Of a stretch of DNA of 51,296 nt, positions 10,389 through 51,296 are shown piece by piece. This DNA comes from Alkalibacterium putridalgicola (GTDB taxonomy: Bacteria > Bacillota > Bacilli > Lactobacillales > Carnobacteriaceae_A): assembly GCF_900109825.1 (NCBI RefSeq), contig NZ_FOBL01000020.1, positions 1 through 51,296 on the forward strand, written 5' to 3'. Position numbers and translations under genes: made by a program. The notes under the pieces are model-generated. The model saw nothing but the letters and a program-made list of their open reading frames with translations. It was not told the DNA's origin and made no database searches. Each line of letters begins with the position of its first letter. Position 1 is the stretch's first letter.

Positions 10389-10637
10389 GCGTGCCCTCTA
10401 GAGAAAAACGGGAGGCGTGAAGGTCACGCAAAGAGGTAGAGCGTGCCCTTCAGAGAGAAACAGGAGGCGCGAAGGTCACGCAAAGAGGCAGAGCGTGCCC
10501 TTCAGAGCGAAACAAGAGGTGCGAAGGTCACGCAAAGAGGCAGGGCGAGCCCTTCAGCGAGAAACAGGAGGTGCGAAGGTCACGCAAAGAGATGGAGCGT
10601 GCCCTTCAGAGCGAATTCGAAGGCGTGAACGTCACGC
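10389..10637. repeat. hairpin array A: five 41-nt units, exact 52-bp period
   Basis: Units start at 10389, 10441, 10493, 10545 and 10597. Each is 41 nt with left arm GCGTGCCCTTC (variants in units 1 and 4) and right arm GAAGGTCACGC (GAACGTCACGC in unit 5), and an 11-nt spacer like AAAGAGGCAGA. The arms pair except for a conserved C-U mismatch at position 6. The array fills the gap between the terminators of luxS (+) and yugP (-). Open frames across it are side effects of the repeat. It belongs to the same sequence family as the array at 21226. Confidence 0.92.
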
Positions 10638-10678
10638 TCCACTTTCAAGAACGTCCTAAATCAACTGAAGTGGATACA

Positions 10679-10724
10679 AAAAAAGGATGAAACGGGAGAA
10701 CTTCTCCTGTTTCATCCTTTTTTA
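10679..10724 (-). terminator. terminator of yugP
   Basis: AAAAAGGATGAAACGGGAGA pairs with TTCTCCTGTTTCATCCTTTT with one G-U pair and a very small loop. A and T tracts lie on both sides, so it may also act on the plus strand. Confidence 0.88.
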
Positions 10725-10736
10725 TTCTATTTATTT

Positions 10737-11438
10737 TTAATGGCGGCGACGGCCTCCAAAAATCAGGAAGAGACGCATCACACTCAAGAATGAAGCGATA
10801 GCTGCGGCGATATAGGTCAATGCAGCGGCATTCAAAACTTTCTTTGCTTGAGGGATCTCTTCTCTGGTCAGTAAGCTCTGTTCTTCCAGGATACGAATGG
10901 CGCGTTTGGATGCATCGAATTCAACCGGTAACGTAACGAGCTGAAAGAGCAGTGTCAAAGAGAAGAGCAGTATCCCGATAGTGATCAGCATATCGCCACC
11001 TTCACCCAGGAACATACCTAAAATAAGAATCGGAAAGGCGGCTGTCTGACCGAAGTTTGTTACAGGAACGAGTGCGGCACGCAGACGCAAGGGTCCGTAA
11101 TTGTCGCGATCCTGCAGGGCATGACCGGCTTCGTGAGCGGCCACACCAATGGCTGCAACAGATGTTGAAGTGCGGGTCGCGTCGGATAGACGCAGGACAT
11201 TTTCCTGTGCGTTATAATGGTCGGTCAAATTTCCGCGTATGCCTTCCAGACGGACATTCTGCAGATTTGAAGCGTCTAAAATCTGACGACAGACGTCAGA
11301 GGCCGTATAACCGCGTTGACTTTTTACTTCGCTGAATTTTGAGTAAGTGGACTGCACATACATGCTGGCCGCTCCGGAAATGATCAAACCGATAATGATC
11401 AGTATCATCGTTGGATCCCAAAATAGTGGGAAATACAT
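10737..11438 (-). CDS. yugP: YugP-type membrane zinc metalloprotease
   Basis: 233 aa. An N-terminal helix (about residues 6-26) is followed by a soluble stretch, the zinc motif HEAGHALQ (near 101-108, HExxH) and two or three further hydrophobic helices (about 120-165 and 200-225). The late acidic residue in PVEFDASKRA (about 172-181) fits the third zinc ligand of this family, often called neutral zinc metallopeptidase 2. The substrate is unknown. GGAGG lies 9 nt before the start. It is monocistronic and convergent with luxS across array A. Confidence 0.88.
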   Translation of the reverse strand: MYFPLFWDPTMILIIIGLIISGAASMYVQSTYSKFSEVKSQRGYTASDVCRQILDASNLQNVRLEGIRGNLTDHYNAQENVLRLSDATRTSTSVAAIGVAAHEAGHALQDRDNYGPLRLRAALVPVTNFGQTAAFPILILGMFLGEGGDMLITIGILLFSLTLLFQLVTLPVEFDASKRAIRILEEQSLLTREEIPQAKKVLNAAALTYIAAAIASFLSVMRLFLIFGGRRRH

Positions 11439-11585
11439 AATAAGAACCTCCAGTATTATTTAAACTAAGTTGATATCAAGAGAATGAATCTCCCTTAATT
11501 ATACCATATATCAGGGGGAGTTATCGATCCAGGATTATGATTAATGCGTGAAATTTTATATTTTGAAATATTAACAGCAATTTTT

Positions 11586-11625
11586 AGTAAATTTACTTGT
11601 TTAGTTTTACTAAAGGGGTTACAAT
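11586..11625 (+). promoter_or_regulatory. gal operon promoter with two palindromic operator candidates
   Basis: -35 TTGTTT (11597-11602) and -10 TACAAT (11620-11625) are separated by 17 bp. AGTAAATTTACT (11586-11597) is a perfect palindrome that abuts the -35. TTTAGT-TTT-ACTAAA (11600-11614) is a second one inside the spacer. Both contain the same half-site AGTAAA/TTTACT and would be blocked by a LacI-family dimer. The obvious candidate is GalR, encoded at the end of the operon. Confidence 0.72.
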
Positions 11626-11657
11626 AATAGTGACTAACTAAAAGGAGCGTGAATTGA

Positions 11658-12833
11658 ATGGAACGCAAACAGTTGATGCAGGACTTTAAAGAACAATTTG
11701 GCCATAAAGCCGACCGTGTTTTATTTTCGCCGGGACGGATCAATTTAATTGGGGAACATACAGATTACAATGGTGGAAAGGTTTTCCCCTGTGCGATCAC
11801 GATGGGTACTTACGGTGTCGTCAAAAAGCGGGAAGATAAAGAAGTCCATGCCTTTTCCGGCAATTTTCCGGAAGTTGGCGAAATCACTTTTAATATACAG
11901 GACCTGTCGTTTAAAAAAGAAGATAACTGGACCAACTATGTCAAAGGCATGATCAGGTATATGCAAGAGAAAGTGGGAGAGCTGCCTCATGGCTTTGATC
12001 TCTATATCTATGGAACGATCCCAAACGGTGCTTCTCTTTCCTCATCCGCTTCACTGGAGCTTTTGACGGGTGTGATTGTCCGTGACATGTATCAGCTCGA
12101 TATCCCGCAGCTGGACTTGGTGAAGCTGGGTATGCGTACGGAAAATGAATTTCTGGGACTCAATTCAGGTATTTTGGATCAGTTTGCTGTCGGTATGGCT
12201 AAAAAAGGTTATGCAATGCTCCTGGATACTAATACGCTTGAGTATGAACAGGTGCCGGTAGAACTGCCGGATCACAAAATAGTGATCATGAATTCCATGA
12301 CGCGACGTGAACTGGTCGATTCCGAGTACAATACACGTCGGGAACAGTGTGAACAAGCTTTAGAACAGCTTCAGGAAGTCGTCGATGTAAAATCGCTTGG
12401 TGAGCTGTCGGTCGAGGCATTCGAGGAGCATAAACATGTCATTAATGACGATGTCCTGATGCGTCGTGCCCGTCATGCCGTGTACGAAAACGTTCGTACG
12501 GATCGCGCAGCTGAAGCATTGAAAGCCGGGGAATTAAACACGTTTGGTCAATATATGAACGAGTCGCATAAGTCTCTGGATGAAGATTATGAAGTAACGA
12601 TCAAAGCGACAGACTATCTTGCCCGAGCAGCCTGGAAAGAAGCAGGTGTAGCAGGTGCCCGTATGACTGGTGGCGGCTTTGGTGGCTGCTGTATAGCCAT
12701 CGTTGAGAATGAAGACGTCGACACATTCATTGACCATGTAGGGCGTGGATTTAAAGAAGAAATCGGCCATGATGCTGAGTTTTATATTGCAGAAACGGCA
12801 GATGGTACAAAGGAATGGGTCGCTCATGAATAA
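11658..12833 (+). CDS. galK: galactokinase GalK
   Basis: 391 aa, a GHMP kinase that phosphorylates galactose with ATP in the Leloir pathway. The galactokinase signature GRINLIGEHTDYNGG is near residues 26-40, the ATP loop is PNGASLSSSASLE near 122-134, and GARMTGGGFGGC is near residue 333. AAAGGAG precedes the start. Its stop overlaps the galT start by 8 nt. It is the first gene of galK-galT-galM-galR, probably repressed by GalR at the promoter described above. Confidence 0.97.
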   Translation: MERKQLMQDFKEQFGHKADRVLFSPGRINLIGEHTDYNGGKVFPCAITMGTYGVVKKREDKEVHAFSGNFPEVGEITFNIQDLSFKKEDNWTNYVKGMIRYMQEKVGELPHGFDLYIYGTIPNGASLSSSASLELLTGVIVRDMYQLDIPQLDLVKLGMRTENEFLGLNSGILDQFAVGMAKKGYAMLLDTNTLEYEQVPVELPDHKIVIMNSMTRRELVDSEYNTRREQCEQALEQLQEVVDVKSLGELSVEAFEEHKHVINDDVLMRRARHAVYENVRTDRAAEALKAGELNTFGQYMNESHKSLDEDYEVTIKATDYLARAAWKEAGVAGARMTGGGFGGCCIAIVENEDVDTFIDHVGRGFKEEIGHDAEFYIAETADGTKEWVAHE

Positions 12834-14331
12834 AACCGTATCAGAAGAGACCATCGATCAGATCATCACCGACTTTCTTGAGTATTATATCCAAACGGGC
12901 AAGGTGGATGCTCTTGACCGCATTTATCTGACGAACCGGCTGCTCGATCTGCTGGGTAAAAAAGAATTCAGGCAGATCGAACCTTCAGGGGAAATTAAAC
13001 AGCCACTTGAACTGCTTGATGCTATGGTCGTCTATGCTGTTGAATCAGAAGCGATCGAGGATCTGTCTTCAAGCAAGGATGTCTTTGGAGCTAAAGTGAT
13101 GGATCTGGTGACGCCTCGCCCTTCAGAAGTAAATCAGCTGTTCTGGGAGCATTATGAAAAAGGACCTAAGGAAGCCACGGATGTCTTCTTTGATCTGAGC
13201 AGACAGAACAACTATATCAAGACGAGAGAAATAGCCAAAAATATCGAGTACACCCATGCGACTGAATATGGGGACCTTGAGATAACGATCAATTTATCGA
13301 AACCGGAGAAAGACCCAAAAGAGATCGCCTTGGCCGGTAAGAGTGAGACGAATTATCCTGAATGCAAGCTATGCATGGAAAATGAGGGGTATGAAGGTCA
13401 TCTGACTCATCCGGGAAGAGCGAACCACCGTATCGTCAGAATGGATGTCAATGGCGAAGAATGGGGCTTCCAGTATTCTCCTTATGCCTACTATAACGAA
13501 CATTCTATCTTCCTGTCGCGTGTCCACCGGAAAATGGATGTAGGCGTGCAGGCGATAAGAAATCTTTTGGATATCCTGACCACACTGCCGCACTATTTTG
13601 TCGGCTCGAATGCGGGACTGCCTATCGTAGGAGGATCGATCCTCTCTCATGATCATTATCAGGGTGGACGCCACACTTTTCCACTGGAACGGGCTGAAGC
13701 TGACTATTCTTTTGAGATGAGTGGTTCATCCGAAGTTGAGACGAGTGTCATCAAGTGGCCGATGTCAGTGATCCGCTTGTCGGGTACTGACAAAGAAGCA
13801 GTCGTAGAAAAAGCAGATAGGATCATGCAGTACTGGGAAACGTATTCTGATGAATCGGTCGGTATTTATGCAGAAACAGACGGGACACCGCACAATGCCG
13901 TCACACCGATCGCAAGGCGTGACGGAGAAAAGTATGAGCTGGATCTGGTCCTTAGAAATAACCGGACATCAGAAAACTATCCAGATGGGATTTTCCATCC
14001 CCATCCACCGGTTCAGCATATCAAGAAGGAGAATATCGGCTTGATCGAAGTAATGGGACTGGCTATTTTGCCGCCGCGTCTAAAAGATGAACTGCAGACT
14101 GTGCGAGAATATCTTACCGGTAAGCAGACAGCGGTCGATCCGATCCATCAGGAATGGGCAGATGAATTAAAAAAGCAGTATGAAATCACAGAAGAAAATG
14201 TTGAAGAGATCGTGGATGAAGCGGTCGGTGACATCTTTCTGCAGGTACTGAAAGATGCCGGTGTCTTTAAACGGGATAAAGAAGGCAAAGCAGCCTTTAA
14301 ACGGTTTATTGACGCCTTGATAAAAGATTGA
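12826..14331 (+). CDS. galT: galactose-1-phosphate uridylyltransferase, type 2
   Basis: 501 aa, the long Firmicutes type 2 form, unlike the ~350-aa E. coli form. The start at 12826 overlaps galK and has AAAGGA about 12 nt upstream. The longer frame from 12745 reads inside galK. It transfers UMP from UDP-glucose to galactose-1-P. SHDHYQGGRH (near 272-281) carries the histidine motif of the nucleotidyl-transfer site. PECKLCMENEGY (near 180) and HPGRANHRIV are also typical. Translational coupling to galK is likely. Confidence 0.95.
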   Translation: MNKTVSEETIDQIITDFLEYYIQTGKVDALDRIYLTNRLLDLLGKKEFRQIEPSGEIKQPLELLDAMVVYAVESEAIEDLSSSKDVFGAKVMDLVTPRPSEVNQLFWEHYEKGPKEATDVFFDLSRQNNYIKTREIAKNIEYTHATEYGDLEITINLSKPEKDPKEIALAGKSETNYPECKLCMENEGYEGHLTHPGRANHRIVRMDVNGEEWGFQYSPYAYYNEHSIFLSRVHRKMDVGVQAIRNLLDILTTLPHYFVGSNAGLPIVGGSILSHDHYQGGRHTFPLERAEADYSFEMSGSSEVETSVIKWPMSVIRLSGTDKEAVVEKADRIMQYWETYSDESVGIYAETDGTPHNAVTPIARRDGEKYELDLVLRNNRTSENYPDGIFHPHPPVQHIKKENIGLIEVMGLAILPPRLKDELQTVREYLTGKQTAVDPIHQEWADELKKQYEITEENVEEIVDEAVGDIFLQVLKDAGVFKRDKEGKAAFKRFIDALIKD

Positions 14332-14358
14332 TATAAAAGAGAAAGTGGAGGAATGACT

Positions 14359-15399
14359 ATGGAACTGACAAAAAAAGTGTTTGGCCGATTTGAAAACCAG
14401 GATGTGTATGAATACACATTGACAAACAAGAACGGCGTATCGATCAGTGCGACCCCATTTGGTGCGACCCTTACTAAACTCGTTACCCCGGATAAAGAGG
14501 GCAAGCGTGAAAATATCACGCTGAACGTGGAGAACTTAGAAGATTTCGCCAGCAACCGCCCGTTTTACGGCGCCACGATCGGACGCGTGGCCGGGCGCAT
14601 AACTAAAGGCAAGTTCACTTTAGACGGGAAAGACTACCAGGTCGACGTCAACGAAGGGGAAAATATGCTGCATGGCGGCCCCAATGGTCTGGATACTAAG
14701 CTTTGGGATATCGTAGTCGATGAATCAGCTGGCAGACTTGTCTTTACCTATGAAAGTCCGGCGGGTGAAAATAATTTTCCAGGCACGATGCAGATCAGAG
14801 TCACTTACACACTGACCGAAGAGAACGACTGGGTCATCGATTATGAAGCAACGACCGATGAAGCGACCCTGTTCAATCCGACGAACCATGTGTATTTTAA
14901 TCTGACCGGTGATATCAAAAAGCCGATCCTTGACCATGAACTGGAGCTGGCTAGTCTAAAGTATGTCCCGCTGGCTGAAGAAAACCTGCCGAGCGAAGAG
15001 AAAGCAAGTGTAGAAGGGACGCCTTTCGACTTTCAGACTGCAAAACCGGTCAAAGAGGCTGTTCTTTCTGATCATGAACAGATCAAGCCGCTGAACGGTC
15101 TGGATCATCCTTTCGTCCTTGATCAGGGCAAAGAGGTCAAAGGCACTCTGTATGATCCTGAAAGCGGACGTGAAGTAACGTTTTACACCGACTGTAACAG
15201 TGTGGTCGTCTTTACACATAATGGAGAAGTGGATGACTATACGATCGAAGGTGAACCTGCCAGACAGTATGCGGGCATTACACTGGAGACTCAGACACTA
15301 CCAGATGCGATCAACAAGAAAGGTTTTGGCAACATTGTTTTAAGGCCGGGAGAAACCTTCCAGTCACGCACCACCTATCATTTTGGAACGAGAGACTGA
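14359..15399 (+). CDS. galM: aldose 1-epimerase (mutarotase) GalM
   Basis: 346 aa. It interconverts the anomers of galactose. The start at 14359 is preferred to the ATG at 14353 because GGAGGA abuts the latter and lies 6-7 nt before the former. NRPFYGATIGRVAGRI (near 60) and the catalytic His in NPTNHVYFNLTG (near 180) are visible, with the acid in GITLETQTLPDA near 309. It lies 21 bp after galT in the Leloir operon. Confidence 0.95.
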   Translation: MELTKKVFGRFENQDVYEYTLTNKNGVSISATPFGATLTKLVTPDKEGKRENITLNVENLEDFASNRPFYGATIGRVAGRITKGKFTLDGKDYQVDVNEGENMLHGGPNGLDTKLWDIVVDESAGRLVFTYESPAGENNFPGTMQIRVTYTLTEENDWVIDYEATTDEATLFNPTNHVYFNLTGDIKKPILDHELELASLKYVPLAEENLPSEEKASVEGTPFDFQTAKPVKEAVLSDHEQIKPLNGLDHPFVLDQGKEVKGTLYDPESGREVTFYTDCNSVVVFTHNGEVDDYTIEGEPARQYAGITLETQTLPDAINKKGFGNIVLRPGETFQSRTTYHFGTRD

Positions 15400-15423
15400 T
15401 CAGGTTTTATATAGATCAAGTAA

Positions 15424-16431
<1,008 letters not shown>

Positions 16432-16467
16432 AAAAAACGTCGGCTCATTTGAGCTGACGTTTTTTTA
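16432..16467 (+). terminator. terminator of the gal operon
   Basis: AAAAAACGTCGGCTCA pairs with GAGCTGACGTTTTTT across a 3-nt loop, with a seven-T tail. The group II intron-like sequence begins 4-5 nt after the T tract. Confidence 0.93.
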
Positions 16468-16470
16468 CTG

Positions 16471-16645
16471 GTGCGCCCGGCATGGGCGACAACTTGGTGG
16501 TGAAAGTCCACTACAAACCTTCGAATGAATACATAACGAAATGCTAAGATACTTTAAACAACAGAAAGAAACGCAAGCGGCAAAGAAATATAATGAATCA
16601 TCAGGCAGCCTTGCCTGATCAGGACCGCATTAAAGCTGATCTCTG
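16471..16645 (+). mobile_element. 5' fragment of a group II intron (IIC-like), no reverse transcriptase
   Basis: It begins GTGCGCCCGGCATGGGCG, the 5' end typical of bacterial group II introns, followed by ACTTGGTGGTGAAAGTCCAC, also a domain I hallmark. Weaker likeness continues through CGCAAGCGGCAAAG, a small stem ATCAGGCA/TGCCTGAT (16600-16619) and AGGACCGCAT. No maturase frame and no domain V are visible before the next gene, so this is a truncated relic. Its position directly behind a Rho-independent terminator is the known target choice of class C introns. The right boundary is uncertain. Confidence 0.62.
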
Positions 16646-16689
16646 CTCGATGAAGGAGAAACTTCTCTGAACTTGATAGAAAAAGAGAT

Positions 16690-17037
16690 CGAGTTTATAT
16701 TACCAGGTCGTAGTTCTATGAACTCAATTTCTTATAAAAGAAGAGTTGATAGAAAAGAGAGCATCTTTTATCAACTCTTTCTGTTTTCATGCGGGAGTTA
16801 TGAAAAGAAGAGCTATCTTCTAGTAACTAAAATGCCAATATGCTCTGGGTTGCTAAAAGAAGGGAGCTCTTTTAGTAACTCACACCGGATTCTCAAAAAA
16901 GTTATTAAAAGAAGAGGCATCTTTTAGCAGCTCGGGTCTTTCAAAAAGAGCCAGTTACTAAAACACGGCCTATTTTTTAGGAAGTCATTCAAACAATAGG
17001 CATGAGTTAACAAAAGAAATCATCTGTTCTCAAAAAT
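16690..17037. repeat. hairpin array B: about seven 35-nt units, 52-bp period
   Basis: Units start at 16690, 16742, 16794, 16846, 16898, 16951 and 17003; each is 35 nt with a 17-18-nt spacer. The clearest unit (16742-16776) has arms GAGTTGATA/TATCAACTC. Others are diverged, for example GGGTTGCTA/TAGTAACTC. The outer units are decayed. The array lies between the intron relic after galR (+) and the terminator of the epimerase gene (-). Its sequence is unrelated to array A but its period is identical. Confidence 0.85.
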
Positions 17038-17091
17038 TCGTACAAAGTGTTAGGTTAGTTTATAGAACTCTGGATACCTTCTAAAATAAAG

Positions 17092-17140
17092 CAATCAAGT
17101 AGGAGGTAAATAAATTAATCATTTACCTCCTACTTGATTG
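17092..17140 (-). terminator. long perfect hairpin, terminator of the epimerase gene
   Basis: A 20-bp perfect stem (17092-17111 with 17121-17140; outer bases CAATCAAGTAGG) has a 9-nt loop. On the minus strand it is followed by CTTTATTTTA. Confidence 0.8.
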
Positions 17141-17147
17141 ATCAGTA

Positions 17148-17894
17148 TTATAACTTATTCAGCTTTTCAAAGGCATTGTCCTGCGGTTCATAGCCCAGTT
17201 TCACTTTGGCAGAATGAATATCCAGACGAGGGAAGGTATTATTCGAAATACCATTGACCAGCAGATACGGTTCAAGAAGCTCTGCCTCCAGACAACGGTC
17301 GATCAGGTGATTCATATCCCTGGCTGAGAAATACATAGCCATGCCGTTAAAGTCGCTGTCAGGATCCAGCTCTGAATCATCTGATTTATAATCCCCGATG
17401 CGGATACCGATGGACTCGATACCTTTATTGAAGGCATAGTAGCTTGCCAGGGCCTCGATATACACTTTTGAAACACCGTATAAATCATCCGGTCGTGGCT
17501 GGTCTGTTGTCTTGACCTGGACGTTATCCGGATAGGCATCGCTGGCGTGGATGGAGCTGGCAAAAATGATTCGTTTCAACTTGGATGCGTCCATTGCCTT
17601 TTTATAAAGGTTCTGCGGCAGCACATAGTTCAAACCAACCAGTTCATCGTAAAAATCAGCGTCTGGATCCGGATTAGCGGCAAGTTGAATGACATACTCG
17701 ACATCATCAAGCAACCCATCCCAGGCCTCCAACTCAATGAGATCGTCCTTAATGATCTCAACACCCTGTTTCAAGTCTTCCGGAAAGGATGAAAAATCGA
17801 TATCTACAAGCACCAAATCGTGTTTTCCTTTCAAGTGTCTGGTCAGATTGGTACCGATCGTGCCCGTCGCACCCGTTATTAAAATCCTGCTCAT
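17148..17894 (-). CDS. NAD(P)-dependent epimerase/dehydratase (extended SDR)
   Basis: 248 aa. The start is set by AAGGAGG 6 nt before the Met of MSRILITG; the open frame is 17 codons longer. The Rossmann loop GATGTIGTNL is at residues 7-16, VLVDID marks NAD binding, and LAAN is near 69. The Ser of ASSIHAS (about 110) and YGVSK (Tyr-x-x-x-Lys, about 137-141) form the catalytic set. The domain order resembles uronate dehydrogenase-like and small sugar-nucleotide SDRs. The substrate cannot be named. It is monocistronic and converges on the gal operon. Confidence 0.85.
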   Translation of the reverse strand: MSRILITGATGTIGTNLTRHLKGKHDLVLVDIDFSSFPEDLKQGVEIIKDDLIELEAWDGLLDDVEYVIQLAANPDPDADFYDELVGLNYVLPQNLYKKAMDASKLKRIIFASSIHASDAYPDNVQVKTTDQPRPDDLYGVSKVYIEALASYYAFNKGIESIGIRIGDYKSDDSELDPDSDFNGMAMYFSARDMNHLIDRCLEAELLEPYLLVNGISNNTFPRLDIHSAKVKLGYEPQDNAFEKLNKL

Positions 17895-17969
17895 GTCGAT
17901 CCTCCTTGGATACTTTATGGAAATAAGGACTCCACCCTTAGACAACTAAGGATGGAGAGTAGTTGAAAC

Positions 17970-18167: not shown

Positions 18168-18206
18168 ATACACTCGCTCCTTCTTCATCGAATTTTGTTC
18201 ACTTTT

Positions 18207-18235
18207 ATTGTATGATGCGAAATGATTATTTGCAA
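18207..18235 (-). promoter_or_regulatory. sigma-A-type promoter of the CsbD gene
   Basis: Read on the minus strand: -35 TTGCAA (18235-18230), 17-bp spacer, -10 TACAAT (18212-18207), about 40 bp before the start codon. Confidence 0.65.
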
Positions 18236-21210: not shown

Positions 21211-21225
21211 TATCTATCTACGATT

Positions 21226-21530
21226 GCGTGCCCTTCCTGAAGAGTGAGGAGCAGTGGAGGTCACGCAAAAGGAAAATGCGTGCCCTTCGAGAAGTTTAGG
21301 AAGCGGTGAAAGTCACGGAAAAGTGAATTGCGTGCCCTTCACGAGATTTAGGAAGCAGTGAAGGTAACGCAAAAGGAAATTGCTTGCCCTTCACGAGATT
21401 TAGAAAGCAGCGAAGGTAACGCAAAAAGGAAATTGCGTGCCCTTCACGAGATTTACGAAGTAATAAAGGTCACACAAATGACCAGAGAGTGACCTTTAAG
21501 GAGATTGCGGAGCTGTGAAGGGCACTCTCT
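21226..21530. repeat. hairpin array C: five 41-nt units plus one inverted unit, 52-bp period
   Basis: Units start at 21226, 21278, 21330, 21382 and 21435. Each is 41 nt with left arm GCGTGCCCTTC and right arm GAAGGTCACGC or GAAGGTAACGC; spacers are 11-12 nt (AAAAGGAAATT type). A sixth element (about 21490-21530) reads GAGTGACCTTT...GAAGGGCACTC, the same arms in inverted order. It shares arms with array A but has different loops and spacers. It lies between the terminators of tsaD (+) and the ABC-F gene (-). Confidence 0.92.
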
Positions 21531-21612: not shown

Positions 21613-21613
21613 A

Positions 21614-39245: not shown

Positions 39246-39286
39246 TTTTAACTGGGATTTCGACTGTGGTTTTTATTATAAGCGTG

Positions 39287-39533
39287 TTCGACAAGTAGGA
39301 TATCATTTAGGAATCTAACCTGTCGAAGTTGACTATGTTCGGTAAGTAGCTGACGAAGCCGATAAGCTACATACCGAATTAACCCTCTATTCGACACTTT
39401 GATAAGCGATTTGACGTGCTACTTACCGAATAAGCGCTTCTTCGGTAAGTAGGTTTCCTTTATCGATTTCTATCGACCGAACATCACCTAGGTTCGACAA
39501 TTAGGAAGAAATAAGGAGCGTGTACTTACCGAA
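39287..39533. repeat. hairpin array D: five 41-nt units, 51/52-bp period
   Basis: Units start at 39287, 39338, 39390, 39441 and 39493, each exactly 41 nt, all beginning TTCG and ending CGAA. Arms are of two types: TTCGACA/TGTCGAA and TTCGGTAAGTAG/CTACTTACCGAA, sometimes mixed within one unit. Unit 39338-39378 pairs over 13 of 14 positions. The right arm of unit 3 and left arm of unit 4 are perfectly complementary over 12 bp. Sequence is unrelated to arrays A-C but the unit length and period are the same. It lies between the MATE gene (+) and the rhodanese gene (-). Confidence 0.9.
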
Positions 39534-39691
39534 CTTCGCTACATTCAGCACTTAAGAGAGTGATAACTGATCCTAATCGTCTAACCTACATCTGATAAGG
39601 AAAGCGGTCGACGCATCGACCGCTACCTTTAAATAATCAGAGTATGAAATTTTTATTACGCATTTAGATACATGAATCTATGAAATCAGGA

Positions 39692-41853: not shown

Positions 41854-41878
41854 ACTTTGTCATTACCGTTTAGAAGCA

Positions 41879-44503: not shown

Positions 44504-44574
44504 ACAAGAATGGTTGTAATTTGATTTGTTTAGTTTATAATTATTATAAAGTGTAAAAAAAGAGGAGTAATGAC

Positions 44575-45225: not shown

Positions 45226-45989
45226 TGGGTGCAAACTTAGAAATCGGAAATTTTTCGTTACTGTTATCTACAGGGTTGCTGTTTATTGCCATATTTGTAG
45301 ATTATAAAGAAAAACTGGATCTAGGTAACGACATTTTCATCGCCGGTGTCAGAGCGGTCGTGCAGCTGTTCGCCATCGGTTATGTCCTGAAGTATATCAT
45401 TCAAGTCGACAACTTCTTTATTACGCTCGCAATGGTCCTGTTCATCGTCTTTAATGCGGGTTTCAATGCCCACAAGCGCAGCGAAGGAATATCGAATTCC
45501 TTATTTATCTCACTCACAGCGATCGGAGTGGGGACTGCAATCACGTTGGGCGTTATGCTCGTTTCAGGAGCCATTATATGGGTCCCGTCACAGATCGTAC
45601 CGATCACAGGGATGATCGCCAGTAATGCCATGGTCGCCATCGGATTGACTTACCGAGCATTGAACAGCAAGTTTACTGATCAGAGACAACAAGTCCTGGA
45701 AAAACTTGCTTTAGGTGCTAATGAGAAACAGGCATCCATGAGCATCATAAGAGAAAGTGTGAAGACAGGCATGAGTCCGTCGATCGACCGGACGAAAACG
45801 GTAGGTCTAGTGAGTCTGCCGGGAATGATGTCTGGCTTGATCTTTGCGGGTGTTGATCCTACAGATGCTATTAGATACCAGATCGTTGTTATGTTCATGC
45901 TTATTGCCGTTACAAGTATTGCAAGCTTCATTGCAAGCTATCTGGCCTACAGAGAATACTATAATGACCGGAACCAGCTGATGATATAA
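45225..45989 (+). CDS. ABC permease, FetB/UPF0014 family
   Basis: 254 aa with about seven helices. The UPF0014 hallmarks are VRAVVQLFAIGYVLKYI (near 38-54), the MIASNAMVAIGLTYRAL motif (near 127-143) and VGLVSLPGMMSGLIFAGVDP (near 191-210). It forms the membrane part of the putative iron exporter with the preceding ATPase. The 1-nt overlap shows tight coupling. A terminator follows. Confidence 0.9.
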   Translation: MGANLEIGNFSLLLSTGLLFIAIFVDYKEKLDLGNDIFIAGVRAVVQLFAIGYVLKYIIQVDNFFITLAMVLFIVFNAGFNAHKRSEGISNSLFISLTAIGVGTAITLGVMLVSGAIIWVPSQIVPITGMIASNAMVAIGLTYRALNSKFTDQRQQVLEKLALGANEKQASMSIIRESVKTGMSPSIDRTKTVGLVSLPGMMSGLIFAGVDPTDAIRYQIVVMFMLIAVTSIASFIASYLAYREYYNDRNQLMI

Positions 45990-46003
45990 AAAATTATACG
46001 AGC

Positions 46004-46043
46004 AAGACCACTCTGTCCATAGTTGATCAGGGTGGTCTTTTTA
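46004..46043 (+). terminator. terminator after fetAB
   Basis: AAGACCACTCTG (46004-46015) pairs with CAGGGTGGTCTT (46028-46039), one G-U pair, and TTTTAT follows. Confidence 0.85.
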
Positions 46044-46082
46044 TATTACACTGTTACAAAACATATCGATACTGAAATAGTT

Positions 46083-46111
46083 TTGAGATATTAGTTCATG
46101 AATAATACAAA
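46083..46111 (+). promoter_or_regulatory. probable promoter of the LysM/3D gene
   Basis: -35 TTGAGA (46083-46088), 17-bp spacer, -10 TACAAA (46106-46111). It predicts a leader of about 150 nt before the start codon. Confidence 0.5.
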
Positions 46112-46130
46112 CTAACTAAAAGGAAGTGAC

Positions 46131-46257
46131 AAAGGGCCCAAACCCCTTTTCTTTATGATTTAGCATGGTAAGATACAATCAGTTGTTCAGGAAAACCAGA
46201 TGAACAAACGCGAACACTGTCTAATTAACCTTACCAATCGAACTATATGAAAAGGGG
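46131..46257 (+). promoter_or_regulatory. structured leader able to sequester the SD of the LysM/3D gene
   Basis: Three complementary pairs are nested: CCCCTTTTC (46143-46151) with GAAAAGGGG (46249-46257), TGGTAAG (46166-46172) with CTTACCA (46230-46236), and TTGTTCA (46183-46189) with TGAACAA (46201-46207). The outer helix contains the SD AAAAGGGG. A competing small hairpin AAAGGG (46131-46136)/CCCTTT (46144-46149) would free the SD. It does not match the ydaO (c-di-AMP) riboswitch core or any other class I know. Confidence 0.5.
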
Positions 46258-46266
46258 AATAAATTA

Positions 46267-47202
46267 ATGACTATTCAAAAAAATACATGGCTTAAAGCAG
46301 GCTTGACATTATCCGCAGCTGGATTGATGCTGCTGACAAATGATACAGAAGCAAGTGCCAATTCAAACTGGGCACCGCGTACGGTTCTGGAAATCGAAGA
46401 AGATATCAATGAAGCTAAAGCAGATTATGATGAAGACAAAACATTGGAATATACTTTCCAATGGGGAGATACACTATGGGGCGTTTCTCAAGCCACTGAT
46501 ATCTCGGTTGAAAAACTGGCAACAGTGAATGATATTGATAACCGCAGCCTGATTCAGGTAGGGACGACTATTTATTTAAGTAATGATTTATCCGTCATTT
46601 CTGTAGAAAATGAAGAAGAGGTCGTCAGTTACGATGTATCTGAAGAGGAAGTGAAAGAAACAGAAACACCTAAAGAAGTAGAAGAAGCTAAAGAAGAGAA
46701 AAAAGAAGTGAAAGATAACCAGGCAGCGGCTGAAAAAGCAGCAGCCGAAAAAGCGGCAGCCGAAAAAGCAGCAGCTGAAAAAGCGGCAGCCGAAAAAGCA
46801 GCAGCCGAAAAAGCAGCAGCCGAAAAAGCGGCAGCTGAAAAAGCAGCAGCCGAAAAAGCGGCAACAGAACAAGCAGCGTCAACTTCTTCTAACAATACAG
46901 CATCACAGGAAGAATCTGGCCGTTGGATATCAGTTGAAGCCACAGCGTATTCTAGAAATCAGGCAAGCTTAAGTAACTTTACCTTTATGGGTATTGATTT
47001 AAGAGAGAATTCTCGCGTTATTGCTGTAGATCCGAATGTCATTCCACTGGGTTCTAAAGTATTGGTACCTGGATATGGTGAATACATTGCCGGAGATACT
47101 GGTGGTGCCATTAAAGGTAATCGAATCGATGTCCACATGGAAGATTTAGATGCGGCATGGTCATTTGGACGTCGTCAAATCGACATCAAAATATTAGACT
47201 AA
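46267..47202 (+). CDS. exported LysM - (AAAEK)n - 3D-domain cell-wall protein
   Basis: 311 aa. The signal peptide (residues 1 to ~35; basic start, LTLSAAGLMLL, then EASANS) is followed by one LysM domain (about 59-103, FQWGDTLWGVSQATDISVEKLA). An acidic/Lys-rich stretch leads into nine perfect AAAEK repeats (about 153-197). The C-terminal 3D domain (about 220-311) contains VEATAYS, VIAVDPNVIPLGSKVLVPG and the three aspartates of AGDTGGAIKGNRIDVHM. 3D domains are lytic-transglycosylase-like folds found in Rpf-type and YocH-type wall-remodelling proteins. The SD AAAAGGGG is 9 nt from ATG and lies inside the putative leader fold. Confidence 0.9.
   Translation: MTIQKNTWLKAGLTLSAAGLMLLTNDTEASANSNWAPRTVLEIEEDINEAKADYDEDKTLEYTFQWGDTLWGVSQATDISVEKLATVNDIDNRSLIQVGTTIYLSNDLSVISVENEEEVVSYDVSEEEVKETETPKEVEEAKEEKKEVKDNQAAAEKAAAEKAAAEKAAAEKAAAEKAAAEKAAAEKAAAEKAAAEKAATEQAASTSSNNTASQEESGRWISVEATAYSRNQASLSNFTFMGIDLRENSRVIAVDPNVIPLGSKVLVPGYGEYIAGDTGGAIKGNRIDVHMEDLDAAWSFGRRQIDIKILD
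46723..46857 (+). repeat. nine tandem 15-bp repeats coding AAAEK
   Basis: GCAGC(A/G)GC(C/T)GAAAAA is repeated nine times in frame within the LysM/3D gene; only third-position silent changes occur, so selection keeps the peptide. The repeat probably forms a rigid Ala-rich helix crossing the wall, and its copy number may vary between strains. Confidence 0.93.
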
Positions 47203-47210
47203 TAGAAAAG

Positions 47211-47253
47211 TCAAAAAAAAAGTACAGAGTAACTATACTCTGTACTTTTTTTT
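47211..47253 (+). terminator. terminator after the LysM/3D gene
   Basis: AGTACAGAGT (47221-47230) pairs with ACTCTGTACT (47237-47246), extended by A and T runs of nine. Confidence 0.92.
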
Positions 47254-47674
47254 TGATGAAAATCGATCCTTTGTAATATTAATAATACTAAATACAAACG
47301 AGTAACCAAATTGTTAAAGCGTTATCTTTTTAAAAAAATGCTATTAATGATAGGGTATAAGTAGATAGGATCTTGGAAACATTAGTACGTTCATTCGTTC
47401 GTCAGTGTTTGATATGTCATATAAAAGTGATAACAGTAAAATGAGTCGACGTGCTATCACTTTTAAAAATAACCTTATTCTGATAGGTTATTTATAGATA
47501 ATACACAAAAGGAGAGATGCTATGAACGAAGAGTTTTCTAGCATAGCAGAACCGGCCGTCCCATAATTCGAAGTGGCATGGTTAACGATACGTTGACGAA
47601 CTGGATACTGACACCGTAGATGACATATACGGATAAAACAGATAACTGCAGAATTATTGAAAGGAGAATATATA
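47254..47674. other. intergenic region with one possible 14-codon ORF
   Basis: AAAAGTGATA (about 47422) and TATCACTTTT (about 47454) form a stem with a 22-nt loop. At 47522-47566 the sequence AAAAGGAGAG is followed by an ATG opening a 14-codon frame (MNEEFSSIAEPAVP). TGCTATG and CATAGCA around that ATG are complementary. No other gene is visible. The stretch probably also carries the promoter of the mini-lipoprotein genes. Confidence 0.35.
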
Positions 47675-47872
47675 ATGAAGAAACTGACAAAGTTACTTGC
47701 TCTGATAATGACCGGTGGTATGCTCATGGTCGGTTGTGGAGAAGTTGACGAAGAGCTGCCTGATGTAGAAGAAACAGAAGAAAATATAGATGAAGGACTT
47801 AACGATGTAGAAGAAGGGGTAGAGGATACGGGGGACGAAATTGATGAAGAGTTAGACGAAGAAACGGAATAA
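47675..47872 (+). CDS. mini-lipoprotein, copy 1
   Basis: 65 aa. The start at 47675 has AAAGGAG about 8 nt upstream. The lipoprotein signal MKKLTKLLALIMTGGMLMVGC ends in a lipobox with Cys 21. The mature part is about 44 residues and strongly acidic (runs of E and D, with LPDVEETEEN and LNDVEEGVEDTGDEIDEEL). No family is recognised. It could be an acidic surface peptide, an ion buffer or a partner of a larger wall protein. It is the first of three tandem copies. Confidence 0.8.
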   Translation: MKKLTKLLALIMTGGMLMVGCGEVDEELPDVEETEENIDEGLNDVEEGVEDTGDEIDEELDEETE

Positions 47873-47904
47873 CAGGCTGATTCACCTAAAAAGGAATGAG
47901 TATT

Positions 47905-48072
47905 ATGAAAAAACTGACAAAACTTATTGCCCTTACCCTGACTGGTGGTTTGCTTTTAGTCGGGTGTGGAGAAACAGATGATATGGAAAATGATTTGCCT
48001 GATGTAGAAGAAACAGAAGACGATTTAATGAATGATGACTTGGGTGATGAAATGGAAGACGACGCTGAATGA
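47905..48072 (+). CDS. mini-lipoprotein, copy 2
   Basis: 55 aa, short and easy to miss. AAAGGAATGAG lies 9-10 nt before the ATG at 47905. The signal MKKLTKLIALTLTGGLLLVGC is nearly the same as in copy 1, with lipobox LVGC. The mature part shares LPDVEETE and is acidic, but it is shorter. It clearly arose by duplication of the upstream gene; the intergenic distance is 32 bp, so both are probably in one transcript. Confidence 0.78.
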   Translation: MKKLTKLIALTLTGGLLLVGCGETDDMENDLPDVEETEDDLMNDDLGDEMEDDAE

Positions 48073-48108
48073 TATTCTGGTCAAACATTATAAATTACTA
48101 AAACTCTA

Positions 48109-48216
48109 ATGAAAAAAGCGGATCAACCTGCTTGCTCTGATGATGACTAACGGCATAGTCATAGTTACAAGCGGAGACAGCGATCAATGAAGAGTTAGCT
48201 GATGTGAAAGAGCCCT
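48109..48216 (+). pseudogene. mini-lipoprotein, copy 3 (decayed)
   Basis: The nucleotide sequence follows copy 1: CTTGCTCTGATGATGAC matches CTTGCTCTGATAATGAC, and GAAGAGTTAGCTGATGTG matches GAAGAGCTGCCTGATGTA. A frameshift near the start makes the ATG frame stop after 13 codons. In the surviving frame the lipobox Cys has become Ser (ITSGD-like), and a TGA follows soon after. It is a dead duplicate. Confidence 0.65.
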
Positions 48217-48300
48217 CAGATTCTCTCGTCCGTTGGTTGGGTTAGAATTGTGAGAAAGTACAGACGAATAACAAACGTTCAATCTTAGAATATGTATGTT

Positions 48301-48340
48301 AAAAAGACACACACCTTATTGAAGGCGTGTGCCTTTTTTA
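48301..48340 (-). terminator. terminator between the mini-lipoproteins and alr
   Basis: AAAAAGACACACACC pairs with GGCGTGTGCCTTTTT using a few G-U/A-C mismatches. A/T tracts on both sides make it usable by alr (-) and the lipoprotein transcript (+). Confidence 0.75.
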
Positions 48341-49510
48341 CTAGTCCAAAAGTGAATTATGTTTTGCTTCAATGGATTCATTTTTATAATATACACGTGG
48401 GACCCTTTTACCAATACCGCAGAGAATCTCATAATGAAAACTGTCAGTCAGGTCTGCCATTTTATATATACTGGGATGCCCTTTTTTAGGATCGCCTATA
48501 AACACTAGCTCAGTATCTTTATTGAAACCCGGGATATCACTTACGTCGACCATCAGCTGATCCATACATATTCGTCCCACGATAGGCGCTTTATGATCAT
48601 CTGTAGTCAGATACCAGCGGTTGGATAATTCTCTAGGGATCCCATCGGCATATCCCAGTAAGATCGTTGCTATAGTTTTTTCTTCCGCTGCTGTAAAAGT
48701 TCTTCCGTATCCGATCGTTGTTCCTTCTTCGACCTTTTTTACATAAGCCGCATGAGTAGATAATCTCATTACCGGCTGCAGATCTATTTTATCTTCAAGA
48801 GACTTGTCCGGGTGATATCCGAACAAAGAAATTCCTGTACGGATCATATCCAGGTGATATTCAGGGTATAAAAGAGTTGCTGCAGTATTACTGCAGTGGG
48901 TCAGGTCAAAGTATATCCCCTGGTCTTTGAGGTCATTAACGATATCCATAAAAAAATCAAATTGGTGTTTTGTATAAGTTGGATCTTCGGTATTTTCGGC
49001 TTCGGCAAAGTGAGTGAAAATACCTTCGAACTCTACCCATTCGGAAGTCATGGTTCGACTTAATCTTGCTGCTTCTTCACGTGAACGTACACCGATCCTG
49101 GCCATACCCGAATCGACCTTTAAATGGATCTTTGCCTTTTTCTGAAGACTTTCGGCGGAATGTTTAACCTTACCGGCAATTTCATCAGAGAAAACTGTAA
49201 TGGAAATGTCATTCTTGATTGCTGTTGGAATTGTATCCGGTTCAATTGGACTCAACAGAAGAATGGGACTTTTCACTCCTGCTTCCCTCAATTCCATGGC
49301 TTCATCCAAGACAGCTACAGCTAGAAAATCGATGTTCTGACTTTCGAGATGCCTGCCGACCTCTACAGCGCCATGGCCATAGGCATCTGCTTTGATCACA
49401 CCCATGAATTTGGTTTTAGGGGATAATAATTCCTTCATACGAATATAATTATCAGTCAGTTTATCTAAGTCGATCGTTGCACGAGTATAGCGATAACTAC
49501 CATAATGCAT
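48341..49510 (-). CDS. alr: alanine racemase
   Basis: 389 aa. A PLP enzyme that interconverts L- and D-alanine for peptidoglycan. The PLP lysine is in VIKADAYGHGAVEV (Lys near residue 39), and the catalytic Tyr in GYGRTFTA (near 266). RIGVRS and the C-terminal MDQLMVDVS are further signatures. AAAGGAG is 9 nt before the start. Monocistronic here, divergent from pepC. Confidence 0.96.
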   Translation of the reverse strand: MHYGSYRYTRATIDLDKLTDNYIRMKELLSPKTKFMGVIKADAYGHGAVEVGRHLESQNIDFLAVAVLDEAMELREAGVKSPILLLSPIEPDTIPTAIKNDISITVFSDEIAGKVKHSAESLQKKAKIHLKVDSGMARIGVRSREEAARLSRTMTSEWVEFEGIFTHFAEAENTEDPTYTKHQFDFFMDIVNDLKDQGIYFDLTHCSNTAATLLYPEYHLDMIRTGISLFGYHPDKSLEDKIDLQPVMRLSTHAAYVKKVEEGTTIGYGRTFTAAEEKTIATILLGYADGIPRELSNRWYLTTDDHKAPIVGRICMDQLMVDVSDIPGFNKDTELVFIGDPKKGHPSIYKMADLTDSFHYEILCGIGKRVPRVYYKNESIEAKHNSLLD

Positions 49511-49646
49511 AATCAGTACTCCTTTCAGTTACACTTTATTTTAACATGAAAAAGGGGAATTAATGAAGCAGCGATGTGGGATTTCATAGACTTTAAACAC
49601 GAATAAATAGTTAGGGATGGAATGGGAACGAGAAAAAAATGACAGC

Positions 49647-49675
49647 TTGTCATCATTCCTGTTTTTGTATAAAAT
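49647..49675 (+). promoter_or_regulatory. promoter of pepC
   Basis: -35 TTGTCA (49647-49652), 17-bp spacer, -10 TAAAAT (49670-49675), 29 bp before the start codon. Confidence 0.65.
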
Positions 49676-49704
49676 AGAGATAGTGATTAAAGGGAGATGT
49701 AAAT

Positions 49705-51045
49705 ATGATGAAAATTACCAAAGAATCATTAGCAAATTACAAAGATAGATATAACGGAAATGCGACCAATAAAGTGGTACAGAATGCGATCGCCAAAGTA
49801 GGAATAAACAAATCCTCTGTCGATAATAACATGACCAGACGACATAATTTCGTATTCTCTCATGAAACAGAAAAAGGCGACATCACGAATCAGAAGTCCA
49901 GTGGGCGCTGCTGGATGTTTGCCGCATTAAATACTGCTCGCGTAGATACAATGGAGAAACTGAATGTGAAGACATTTGAATTTTCGCAGAATTATACCCT
50001 TTTCTGGGATAAGTTGGAAAAATCAAATTATTTCCTCGACAGTATAATTGAAACGGTGGATGAACCCCTCAACTCACGTCTGGTTCAGCACCTGCTGCAG
50101 GACCCCGTTCAAGATGGTGGACAGTGGGATATGTTTTCTGGGATCCTTGAAAAATACGGGGCTGTTCCCAAATCAGCCATGCCGGAAACCTATCATTCTT
50201 CTAATACACGAGAACTCAACCAGCTTCTGACTGCCAAACTGAGAGACTTTGCCGCGAAGATTCGAGAAAATCATAAGAGTGGAAAAACAAAGGATGAGCT
50301 TGTTGAACTGAAAGAGGACTACCTCTATTTTGTCTATGCCTTGTTAGTGAAGACATTGGGTGAGGTTCCGGAATCATTTACGTATGAATATCGCGATAAG
50401 GACGAAGAATTCCACCGTATTCATGAGATAACTCCACGTGAGTTCTTTGAAAAATATGTTGCATGGGATTTGGAGGAACGCATTAGTTTGATCAATGCGC
50501 CCACTGATGATAAGCCGTTTGGTAAAGCATATACTGTTAAATATCTGGGAACGATCAAAGAAGCACAACCGATCAGATATGTTAATGCACCTATTGATGC
50601 ATTGAAAAAAGCAGCGGTCCAGTCGATCAAAGATGGTGAACCGGTATGGTTTGGCTGCGATGTCGGAAAAATGCTTGACCGTGAAGCAGGGATCATGGAT
50701 GATAAAGCGTATGATTACGAAGCAACCTTGGGAGAGTCTGTTGAACTGACTAAAGGCCAGCGCCTCGATTATGGTGAAAGTTTACTGACCCATGCGATGG
50801 TTTTTGTTGGAGTTGACCTCGATGATGAAGGCAACCCGATCAAGTGGAAAGTCGAAAACAGCTGGGGCGACAAGAGCGGAGATAAAGGTGTCTATTCGAT
50901 GACTGATAAATGGTTTGACGAATATAACTATCAAGTGGCCGTTAAACGTAAATACATTGATGAAAAATGGCTGAAAGCTCTAGACGAACCAGTTGTTGAA
51001 CTGGAACCGTGGGATCCTATGGGTGCTCTGGCCATGGTCAAATAA
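49705..51045 (+). CDS. pepC: aminopeptidase C (bleomycin hydrolase family)
   Basis: 446 aa, the usual length. It is a cytosolic hexameric papain-like C1B peptidase that removes N-terminal residues. The catalytic Cys is in QKSSGRCWMFAALN (near 68-75), His in THAMVFVGVD (near 366) and Asn in VENSWGDKSGDKG (near 387). AAGGGAGATG precedes the ATG; a second ATG follows as codon 2. After the stop, CCTTCAG/CTGAAGG (51047-51073) forms a stem without a T tract. Confidence 0.97.
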   Translation: MMKITKESLANYKDRYNGNATNKVVQNAIAKVGINKSSVDNNMTRRHNFVFSHETEKGDITNQKSSGRCWMFAALNTARVDTMEKLNVKTFEFSQNYTLFWDKLEKSNYFLDSIIETVDEPLNSRLVQHLLQDPVQDGGQWDMFSGILEKYGAVPKSAMPETYHSSNTRELNQLLTAKLRDFAAKIRENHKSGKTKDELVELKEDYLYFVYALLVKTLGEVPESFTYEYRDKDEEFHRIHEITPREFFEKYVAWDLEERISLINAPTDDKPFGKAYTVKYLGTIKEAQPIRYVNAPIDALKKAAVQSIKDGEPVWFGCDVGKMLDREAGIMDDKAYDYEATLGESVELTKGQRLDYGESLLTHAMVFVGVDLDDEGNPIKWKVENSWGDKSGDKGVYSMTDKWFDEYNYQVAVKRKYIDEKWLKALDEPVVELEPWDPMGALAMVK

Positions 51046-51112
51046 ACCTTCAGGCATTCTAACTTGCTGAAGGGAGACGTCTATCATCATTAGTCACCTG
51101 GACTAACGATGC

Positions 51113-51296
51113 GGTGCGTACAGCTATTCTTGATCTCATTAGGCGCACCCAGCAAGGAGACAAATTGAGTACGCTGAATGAGCCGGACAAAGGACGTACT
51201 CATCGAGAATAAAGCATGAGTACGCTGAATGAGCTACGCAAAGGACGTACCCGGCGAGAATAATACGTGAGTACGCTGAATGAGCCGGACAAAGGA
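51113..51296. repeat. hairpin array E: 35-nt units, 51-bp period, cut by the window end
   Basis: Units start at 51167, 51218 and 51269. The first is 35 nt with arms GAGTACG/CGTACTC; the second ends CGTACCC; the third runs off the window. The loop GCCGGACAAAGG is conserved. A related but diverged stem GGTGCG/CGCACC (51113-51149) precedes them by 54 bp. Spacers are 16 nt (ATCGAGAATAAAGCAT type). The array starts about 40 bp after the pepC stem. Confidence 0.85.

Follow-up and report, generated by a model that had tools for sequence, protein, structure and literature searches.

The window, a stretch of 51,296 nucleotides from Alkalibacterium putridalgicola, raises the question of why intergenic arrays of unlike sequence should repeat at nearly the same distance. 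A first-pass annotation, made from the letters alone, described five arrays of hairpins with one shared geometry, all of which are confirmed here, three by TRF and two by lag identity. They comprise the following features:

10389..10637, plus strand: F1 array, five units of 41 nt, period 52
16690..17060, no strand assigned: F2 array, diverged, best lag 52, half-site approximately GAGTTRCTAAAAGA by eye
21226..21475, plus strand: F1 array (the tsaD array), five units, period 52/53
21487..21527, minus strand: sixth F1 unit of the tsaD array, inverted, with the mismatch pair A/G, not C/T
39283..39560, no strand assigned: F3 array, diverged, lags 51-52 and 103
51113..51296, no strand assigned: F5 array, GAGTACG ... 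CGTACTC, units of 35 nt, period 51

Arrays of one period

The first array, whose units read GCGTGCCCTTC ... GAAGGTCACGC, is flanked by luxS (plus strand) and a Zn-peptidase gene (minus strand); both terminators sit inside the flanks and the array lies beyond them. The F2 array has a LacI-family gene on one side and an epimerase-like gene on the other. The second F1 array lies between tsaD (plus) and a minus-strand gene whose ATPase product contains two ABC domains. The F3 array, with the half-site TTCGGTAAGTAGG / TTCGACAAGTAGG (by eye), is flanked by a MatE gene (plus) and a rhodanese and beta-lactamase-fold gene (minus). Finally, the F5 array follows a Peptidase_C1_2 (pepC-type) gene and runs off the contig end; repeat arrays are also found at the ends of many contigs of the assembly.

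TRF delimits arrays at 10388-10637 and 21223-21478, both of period 52, and at 51166-51296, of period 51. Neither TRF nor a 70%-identity scan detects the more diverged arrays, at 16690-17060 and 39283-39560. Over lags of 20-119, the former gives its best identities at 52 (0.47) and 104 (0.43), with a mean of 0.27, and the latter at 103 (0.47), 51 (0.39) and 52 (0.39), with a mean of 0.25.

A repeat scan of five complete contigs (332,866 bp including the window; lags 20-200; threshold of at least 42 matches in 60) places all non-coding repeat pairs at 50-53, 101-105 or 152-157 bp, in 15 arrays, the sole exception, at lag 95, being a pair of tRNAs; lags of coding repeats in the same scan are mixed. 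The first-pass annotation had conceded that a lack of further arrays, or arrays of random period, would make the common geometry a coincidence; the search was run, and its outcome favors the period near 52. A chance origin of the shared period is ruled out, and the proposed length of about five helical turns agrees with the 51 or 52 bp found almost throughout. Successive F1 units lie exactly 52 bp apart in 83 of 97 cases in four genomes, and successive F5 units exactly 51 bp apart in 79 of 103 cases in two genomes, as counted on 149 of 334 F1 and 148 of 286 F5 matches and omitting two F5 rows of contig C70. The remaining distances, save 1 of 394, differ by one or lie near a multiple.

The period is kept across unrelated sequences, as had been claimed, with at least seven families distinguished by eye in the five contigs. 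Six sampled congeners carry further arrays at 51/52, mostly of other sequence, and so does a second genus (g9), while a third (g8) has arrays at 40-41 bp, about four helical turns. The sequence families are not the same from species to species: F5 is strongly present in G000 and G004 only, and F1 in G000, G001, G004 and G007. Against this regularity of period, the congener samples also contain repeats at 105 (G002), 91 (G003) and 99 (G011) bp that lie outside any long open frame.

Conserved half-sites and free loops

The description of each unit as a 41- or 35-nt hairpin plus spacer is a valid reading, but it is one of two equivalent ones. In the other, pairing of the arms runs across the spacer, and most dyads therefore sit on a 26-bp ladder, at 10435, 10461, 10487, 10513, 10591 and 10617 in the F1 array and at 16708, 16734, 16760, 16838, 16864 and 16890 in the F2 array; one F2 dyad, at 16984.5, lies off the ladder, and the F5 array yields no unit under the strict criteria used for these dyads. 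Peaks at 26 and 52 appear in a spectrum of hairpin spacings, although that analysis was overly strict. The two unit lengths are not fixed across families, the palindrome of family F6, for example, being 24 nt long by eye. Near-perfect palindromy is not general either, because a strict per-array dyad test is passed (p<=0.05) by just 18 of 76 arrays, with a mean best score of 8.68 versus 7.67 in shuffles; one period-40 family of G018 has no dyad symmetry.

At least 122 F1 and 145 F5 unit matches occur in the A. putridalgicola genome, both lower bounds since 150 candidates were scored per genome. Between loci, identity in F1 is 0.78/0.73 in the arms, 0.31 in the loop and 0.38 in the spacer (13 forward loci, including two coding single matches that depress arm identity), and in F5 it is 0.71/0.67, 0.35 and 0.38, respectively. 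In both families, loops and spacers are therefore near random between loci while their lengths are almost constant. The distance between F1 half-sites is 29 in 107 cases, 28 in 7 and 30 in 4, and that between F5 half-sites is 20 in 342 of 405, all these counts being inflated by overlapping loci and by counting both strands. Conserved half-sites at a fixed spacing over free sequence, as in a protein-binding array, are thus found in F1 and F5. The first-pass proposal that the hairpins would sit on one face of the helix has a parallel in the conserved positions of F5, where the fifth harmonic takes 47% of the variance in pattern-selected units and 26% in unselected ones; it finds none in F1 (1% at harmonic 5), which has no helix-face pattern.

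Selection might instead act on a hairpin of RNA or single-stranded DNA, such as a 3′-UTR stabilizer, an RNase III substrate or a structure against read-through, as the inverted arms with their recurrent mismatch zone and the position of the arrays behind genes would allow. However, covariation of the arms does not exceed that of shuffles in F1 or F5 (72 and 388 of 500 shuffles, respectively, are as high), and the hairpin, taken at first as the conserved object, changes its arms without such compensation. In addition, of 26 gene 3′ sides that face an array, 18 have a terminator ahead of it (compared with 80 of 156 other gene ends), and hairpins leave the locked 51-52 period over free loops unexplained. 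At gathering score the only Rfam families in the window are those of 5S rRNA and tRNA, and in six further loci no array is matched; the weak matches at 16400-17200 are below every gathering score. This explanation is accordingly judged decidedly unlikely. As covariation does not rise beyond shuffles in either family, the apparent target of selection is the duplex half-site rather than the hairpin.

Gene ends and orthologous arrays

The first-pass annotation had placed the arrays in convergent gaps only. This holds for the window, but genome-wide, of the 36 arrays with both neighbors, 15 lie in convergent gaps, 19 in co-directional and 2 in divergent ones (14, 19 and 3 by a second gene calling). 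Half of the arrays being co-directional, a barrier between convergent genes is therefore not the whole story. The count sets aside four repeats that overlap ORFs, one truly coding and three open-frame F5 arrays (one in the A. putridalgicola genome, two in G004). An open frame in some F5 arrays, together with a period of 51 that equals 17 codons, would suit DNA coding for proteins of 17-residue repeats. This reading is rejected as barely credible, given the absence of a codon-position signal (0.541, 0.553, 0.582), stops in that frame in many arrays and 52-bp steps that break it in some; the F1 period, moreover, is 52.

No dedicated gene family was found beside the arrays, and the protein clusters checked among their neighbors are ordinary by Pfam: ABC transporters, P-type ATPases, dehydrogenase and aldo/keto reductase, and CbiQ. 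Likewise, no candidate gene for a cognate binding protein was found among these neighbors. Tyrosine recombinases, matched 5-7 times in each of five genomes, present nothing special, and spread on plasmids or phages is disfavored for F1, the F1 array giving no match there.

Orthology with A. subtropicum was asked for 20 array places, of which 11 are readable, and arrays are present in 8 of these 11 gaps. The gap between luxS and the Zn-peptidase gene holds 2 F1 units there and 5 in the window, and that of the tsaD array holds 1. At the F2 place the aligned flanks are only about 20 bp apart, whereas the F3 array is co-linear (278 columns, 30 substitutions, 0 indels) and the counterpart of the F5 array at 51113 extends over about 450 bp. 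The counterpart of an array at 63885 of contig C32 has no F1 half-site. Six orthologous arrays together show 145 substitutions and no short indel in 746 columns, where 6.4 would be expected from the 128 short indels of other intergenic DNA (11,050 columns, 2,901 substitutions). This count omits the array at 47456 of contig C37, at whose site A. subtropicum has no array; with it, there are 858 columns, 204 substitutions and 2 short indels versus 9.0 expected. Orthologous arrays differ by the gain or loss of whole units, with copy-number steps of 157 and 262 bp, and one step of 150 bp is no clean multiple of 52.

Such changes by units, and the greater likeness of units within one locus than between loci, are what neutral satellites would display if they duplicated by slippage or unequal exchange, inherited their period within each family and spread by multi-unit copying. 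Common descent could indeed also fix whether a family has 51 or 52. Against neutral satellites, families unrelated by eye share 51/52 in two genera, loops that are near random between loci show almost no length change, and the arms remain conserved between loci. We regard this origin as unlikely.

Comparison with known repeats

A search of titles and abstracts in the open-access literature found no description of such arrays. Their closest parallels are the BIME-2/REP elements of enterobacteria and pseudomonads, which PMC2817692 describes as imperfect palindromes of extragenic DNA that form arrays, most of them downstream of genes, with several families per genome and regular spacing of units within BIMEs. 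Imperfect extragenic palindromes of 20-40 bp in many copies are likewise found here. Spacers in REP dimers are mostly 20 to 100 bp long, and some are of unlike sequence but similar length (PMC3733652). By contrast, the arrays described here are locked at 51-52 or 40-41 bp across many families.

It could thus be postulated that the arrays are selfish hairpins of the REP/BIME kind, which a RAYT or another HUH enzyme would mobilize and multiply and which are tolerated only behind genes. The REP-like traits, including the few divergent gaps (compare PMC3733652 and PMC2817692), and the turnover of families between species speak for this. Nevertheless, a search for Y1_Tnp in five congeners that all carry arrays (G001, G005, G006, G007 and G011) gives no match, which makes RAYT or IS200 unlikely as the driver. 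Six Y1_Tnp fragments occur in the A. putridalgicola genome; three of them are readable at the C-terminal end and have the Y---Q motif of the IS200 type, and a RAYT-type motif was seen in none of the six. The REP end tag is lacking in F1 by count: of 92 units, 7 have GTAG no more than 8 nt beyond an end (1 on the left, 6 on the right) and none has CGTC there. In F5 its absence is judged by eye only. Selfish movement also fits poorly with arrays that stay at orthologous sites, and overall this account appears unlikely. The same stability, and a search that found no such machinery, weaken the earlier suggestion of an element that measures a fixed length.

Other known repeats differ in further respects. 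BOX, RUP and other small streptococcal repeats are intergenic elements with dyad symmetry in Lactobacillales, and BOX may contain several boxB copies. Each element type is one sequence family, and a helical period kept constant over unrelated families is not known to us among them. Plasmid centromeres such as sopC consist of tandem 43-bp units, each with an inverted repeat; they resemble the present arrays in outline, as tandem units of about four turns with an inverted (here putative) protein site. However, sopC is a single plasmid locus with its own ParB, whereas these arrays occupy many chromosomal loci in many sequence families. Integron attC sites are likewise inverted and variable in sequence, and their stem contains an unpaired zone; they divide gene cassettes of varying length, while the arrays have no cassettes and a period fixed at 51-52. 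Nor are they CRISPR arrays with unique spacers, since spacers repeat within an array (within-locus identity 0.63 in F1 and 0.66 in F5).

A near-constant 51-52 bp, about five turns, over unlike sequences suggests that DNA-binding proteins line up along the arrays. Our tentative best explanation, on which we remain almost evenly divided, is that the arrays are duplex binding sites phased along the helix for proteins that form a stacked nucleoprotein array with a barrier function. Each unit would offer two inverted copies of a half-site of 10-15 bp, recognized in the duplex by a sequence-specific protein that is probably different for each family. Loop and spacer sequence would be free, with lengths held so that the unit recurs about every five turns, and the other genus would follow the same principle at about four. 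We infer that the phasing is the feature kept by selection, bound proteins stacking in register. In the weakest step of the model, the array would act behind genes as a barrier that stops read-through transcription or the spread of supercoils. The period, the geometry and the hint at a DNA-bound function thus survive from the first-pass interpretation, whereas its convergent-only placement, conserved hairpin and two unit lengths do not.

Intergenic repeats of bacteria are usually sorted into classes by their sequence. The arrays may possibly, if doubtfully, represent a new class of bacterial satellite defined by geometry, with a unit length quantized in whole turns and protein arrays that insulate the 3′ ends of genes. 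If so, dozens of loci or more per genome would carry unrelated families that turn over between species, at five turns in Alkalibacterium and genus g9 and at four in genus g8, as the bacterial equivalent of chromatin-phased satellites and of boundary elements. Since sequence varies by family and species while unit length stays near whole turns, DNA geometry may be read by something at many gene ends, and the arrays could point to a nucleoid or insulator protein, or to a mobile system that measures length.

Array structure in the window and its period across the genome

The window is a complete contig (C28, 51,296 bp) of a draft genome of 2.60 Mb in 72 contigs. Among named organisms, the nearest relatives found belong to Alkalibacterium, the tsaB gene being 90% identical to its counterpart in A. 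subtropicum DSM 23664. All five repeat arrays described in the first-pass annotation are present:

10389: family F1, luxS gap
16690: family F2, lacI gap
21226: family F1, tsaD gap
39283: family F3
51113: family F5

TRF returns periods of 52, 52 and 51 for three of them, while the diverged array at 16690 has its best lag (the distance between matching segments) at 52 and that at 39283 at 103, 51 and 52. The division of these arrays into "hairpin plus spacer" units is one of two equivalent cuts, since half-sites of alternating orientation follow one another like rungs, giving one dyad per ~26 bp. In the tsaD array, a single F1 unit (21487-21527) is reversed relative to its five neighbours. Directly after the lacI terminator, positions 16469-16525 may resemble the 5' terminus of bacterial group II introns (GTGCGCCCGGC ... 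GGTGAAAGTCC); searched against Rfam, the stretch 16400-17200 returned nothing of the group II class. The in-frame 15-bp repeats (GCAGCAGCCGAAAAA) at 46723-46877, within the gene at 46267-47202, are coding and unrelated to the arrays.

A search for the period beyond the window, proposed in the same annotation, bore it out. Five complete contigs, the window included (332,866 bp), were scanned for segment pairs with at least 42/60 matches at lags of 20-200; the other four had been picked for their F1 matches, which biases the density of arrays but not their period. Non-coding repeats occur only at 50-53, 101-105 and 152-157 bp, in 15 arrays, the sole further non-coding match being a tRNA pair at lag 95, and coding repeats in the same scan show mixed lags. 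At least seven sequence families can be told apart.

Sequence families among the arrays (by eye)
F1: GCGTGMCCTTC
F2: GAGTTRCTAAAAGA
F3: TTCGGTAAGTAGG
F4: TGTTCACTSA
F5: GAGTACGNNNAATGA
F6: TGTNNCAATA
F7: GTGACCACTTCC

Many contigs end in the interior of an array, which looks like assembly breakage. The genome also holds six Y1 transposase pieces (L032-L037), and because several lie at contig ends and are of IS200 type where readable, they suggest a multi-copy IS200 element that may likewise break the assembly.

Fixed lengths over free sequence, and arrays within and beyond the genus

Covariance models of F1 and F5 were run on 12 genus genomes, with 150 candidates scored each, so that high counts are lower bounds. 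F1 matched at least 122 times in the own genome, at least 75 times in both G007 and A. subtropicum (G004) and at least 56 times in G001, with 4 matches in G003 and 2 in G006; the other six genomes gave no F1 match. F5 gave at least 145 matches in the own genome, at least 139 in A. subtropicum and 2 in G003, and was absent from the results for the other nine. Among the matches listed (149 of 334 used for F1, 148 of 286 for F5), the distance from one unit to the next is exactly 52 bp in 83 of 97 F1 cases and exactly 51 bp in 79 of 103 F5 cases; the remaining distances are off by one or near multiples, with a single exception of 394 bp. Identity between F1 loci (13 forward loci, including two coding single matches, with units chosen by arms and length) is 0.78 and 0.73 in the arms, 0.31 in the loops and 0.38 in the spacers. 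For F5, with a selection pattern that included the arms, the values are 0.71 and 0.67, 0.35 and 0.38, and the profile is similar without unit-by-unit selection (29 loci, 174 units). With no length condition, the half-site distance is 29 in 107 F1 cases (28 in 7, 30 in 4) and 20 in 342 of 405 F5 cases, counts inflated by overlapping loci and both strands.

Arrays at 51/52 bp in sampled stretches of Alkalibacterium congeners
G001: 4 arrays (40 kb sampled); three are F1, the other looks new by eye
G005: 2 arrays (120 kb)
G006: 4 arrays (100 kb)
G007: 2 arrays (60 kb), resembling F1 and F6
G008: 1 array (24 kb)
G011: 2 arrays (80 kb)

None was found in the sampled G002 (106 kb), G003 (83 kb) or G009 (26 kb). 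Congener repeats at other lags lie mostly within open frames; those outside have lags of 105 (one, G002), 91 (G003) and 99 (G011). Outside the genus, 772,819 bp from 17 sources, of which G012 supplied masked bases alone, yielded a single array of period 51 in G021 (genus g9), which on extension to 240 kb has arrays at 51 and 52, and arrays at 40-41 in G018 (genus g8), together with repeats at other lags that were classed in part. Extended to 256 kb, the G018 sample contains six arrays with a period of 40-41 and no array at 50-53. One of the G018 array families lacks dyad symmetry, and the remaining repeats, where inspected, are tRNA clusters and open-frame repeats. A selenocysteine tRNA gene lies ~100 bp before a 40-bp-period array in this genus (L165:2524-2617). 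Periods of 41 and 52 bp correspond to about four and five turns of B-DNA. In G015 (genus g5), L159:9504-9770 carries two copies 154 bp apart, with next-best, weaker self-match lags of 51 and 103, a pattern that hints at the same kind of array in a further genus.

Genomic placement and turnover

Arrays with both neighbours (n = 36, own genome and A. subtropicum) fall in 15 convergent, 19 co-directional and 2 divergent gaps, against a background of 99, 412 and 104 among 615 gaps; under a second gene calling the split is 14, 19 and 3. The arrays lie mostly behind genes. A simple detector finds a terminator separating the gene from the array on 18 of 26 facing 3' sides, and a terminator at 80 of 156 other gene ends. 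The recurring adjoining genes are ordinary, where checked. One divergent exception, in A. subtropicum, is a ~1 kb F5 array flanked by rpoN and an M3-peptidase gene; no longer F5 array was seen in that species (18 units by pattern, one strand). The own genome also has an array beside an M3-peptidase gene of the same type (pair: L106:9828-10829 and L122:2550-3218).

Twenty array places were sought in A. subtropicum stretches, and 8 of the 11 readable gaps hold a matching family at the matching place. The array is absent from the other three, the counterparts of window 16690, where the aligned flanks lie ~20 bp apart, of C37 47456 and of C32 63885, the last of which yielded no F1 half-site. Neither the lacI nor the tsaD gap holds an array in Alkalibacterium sp. 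20, a more distant relative. Unit numbers in the own genome versus A. subtropicum are 5 versus 2 in the luxS gap and 6 versus 1 in the tsaD gap, and copy number shifts by whole units in these two arrays (157- and 262-bp steps); the step of 150 bp at C32 49595 is less clean. Six orthologous arrays show 145 substitutions and no short indels in 746 aligned columns, versus 2,901 and 128 in 11,050 columns of the remaining intergenic DNA of the same blocks, a ratio from which 6.4 indels would be expected (Poisson P of none ~0.002). Adding a seventh array, left out of the main count, gives 2 indels versus 9.0 expected. The F3 array of the window differs from its counterpart by 30 substitutions and no indels in 278 columns.

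Hairpin or duplex site, and nearest known systems

In a hairpin under selection, a change in one arm is expected to be answered in the other. Covariation between arms did not exceed that of shuffled sets in F1 (44 distinct units, 72 of 500 shuffles as high) or in F5 (27 distinct units, 388 of 500). Each arm appears to be conserved independently as sequence, consistent with half-sites that a putative protein recognises in double-stranded DNA. On this view, the mismatched stretch within each palindrome would be a portion of the half-site under looser recognition. On the proposal that the units may sit on one face of the helix, the two families differ: the conserved positions of F5 show a 10.2-bp periodicity, which accounts for 47% of the profile variance when units are selected by pattern and 26% when they are not, and those of F1 show no such recurrence (1%).

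The best reading of the arrays is as phased sites for a putative protein. They resemble BIME-2 arrays in place and palindromes. Plasmid centromeres such as sopC consist of tandem units, each with an inverted site, and are alike in this respect. They do not qualify as REP elements, given that no RAYT was found in the own genome or five array-bearing congeners, that F1 has no end tag and that the period is fixed. Searches of the open-access literature brought up no account of such arrays. REP spacers of different sequence but similar length are already on record (PMC3733652), and because of this precedent and the putative nature of the mechanism, we file the arrays as a variant of bacterial extragenic repeat arrays. 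They may act as a transcription or supercoil barrier, in chromosome organisation, or as a selfish satellite. If helical quantisation holds true across complete genomes, the arrays would constitute a separate class.
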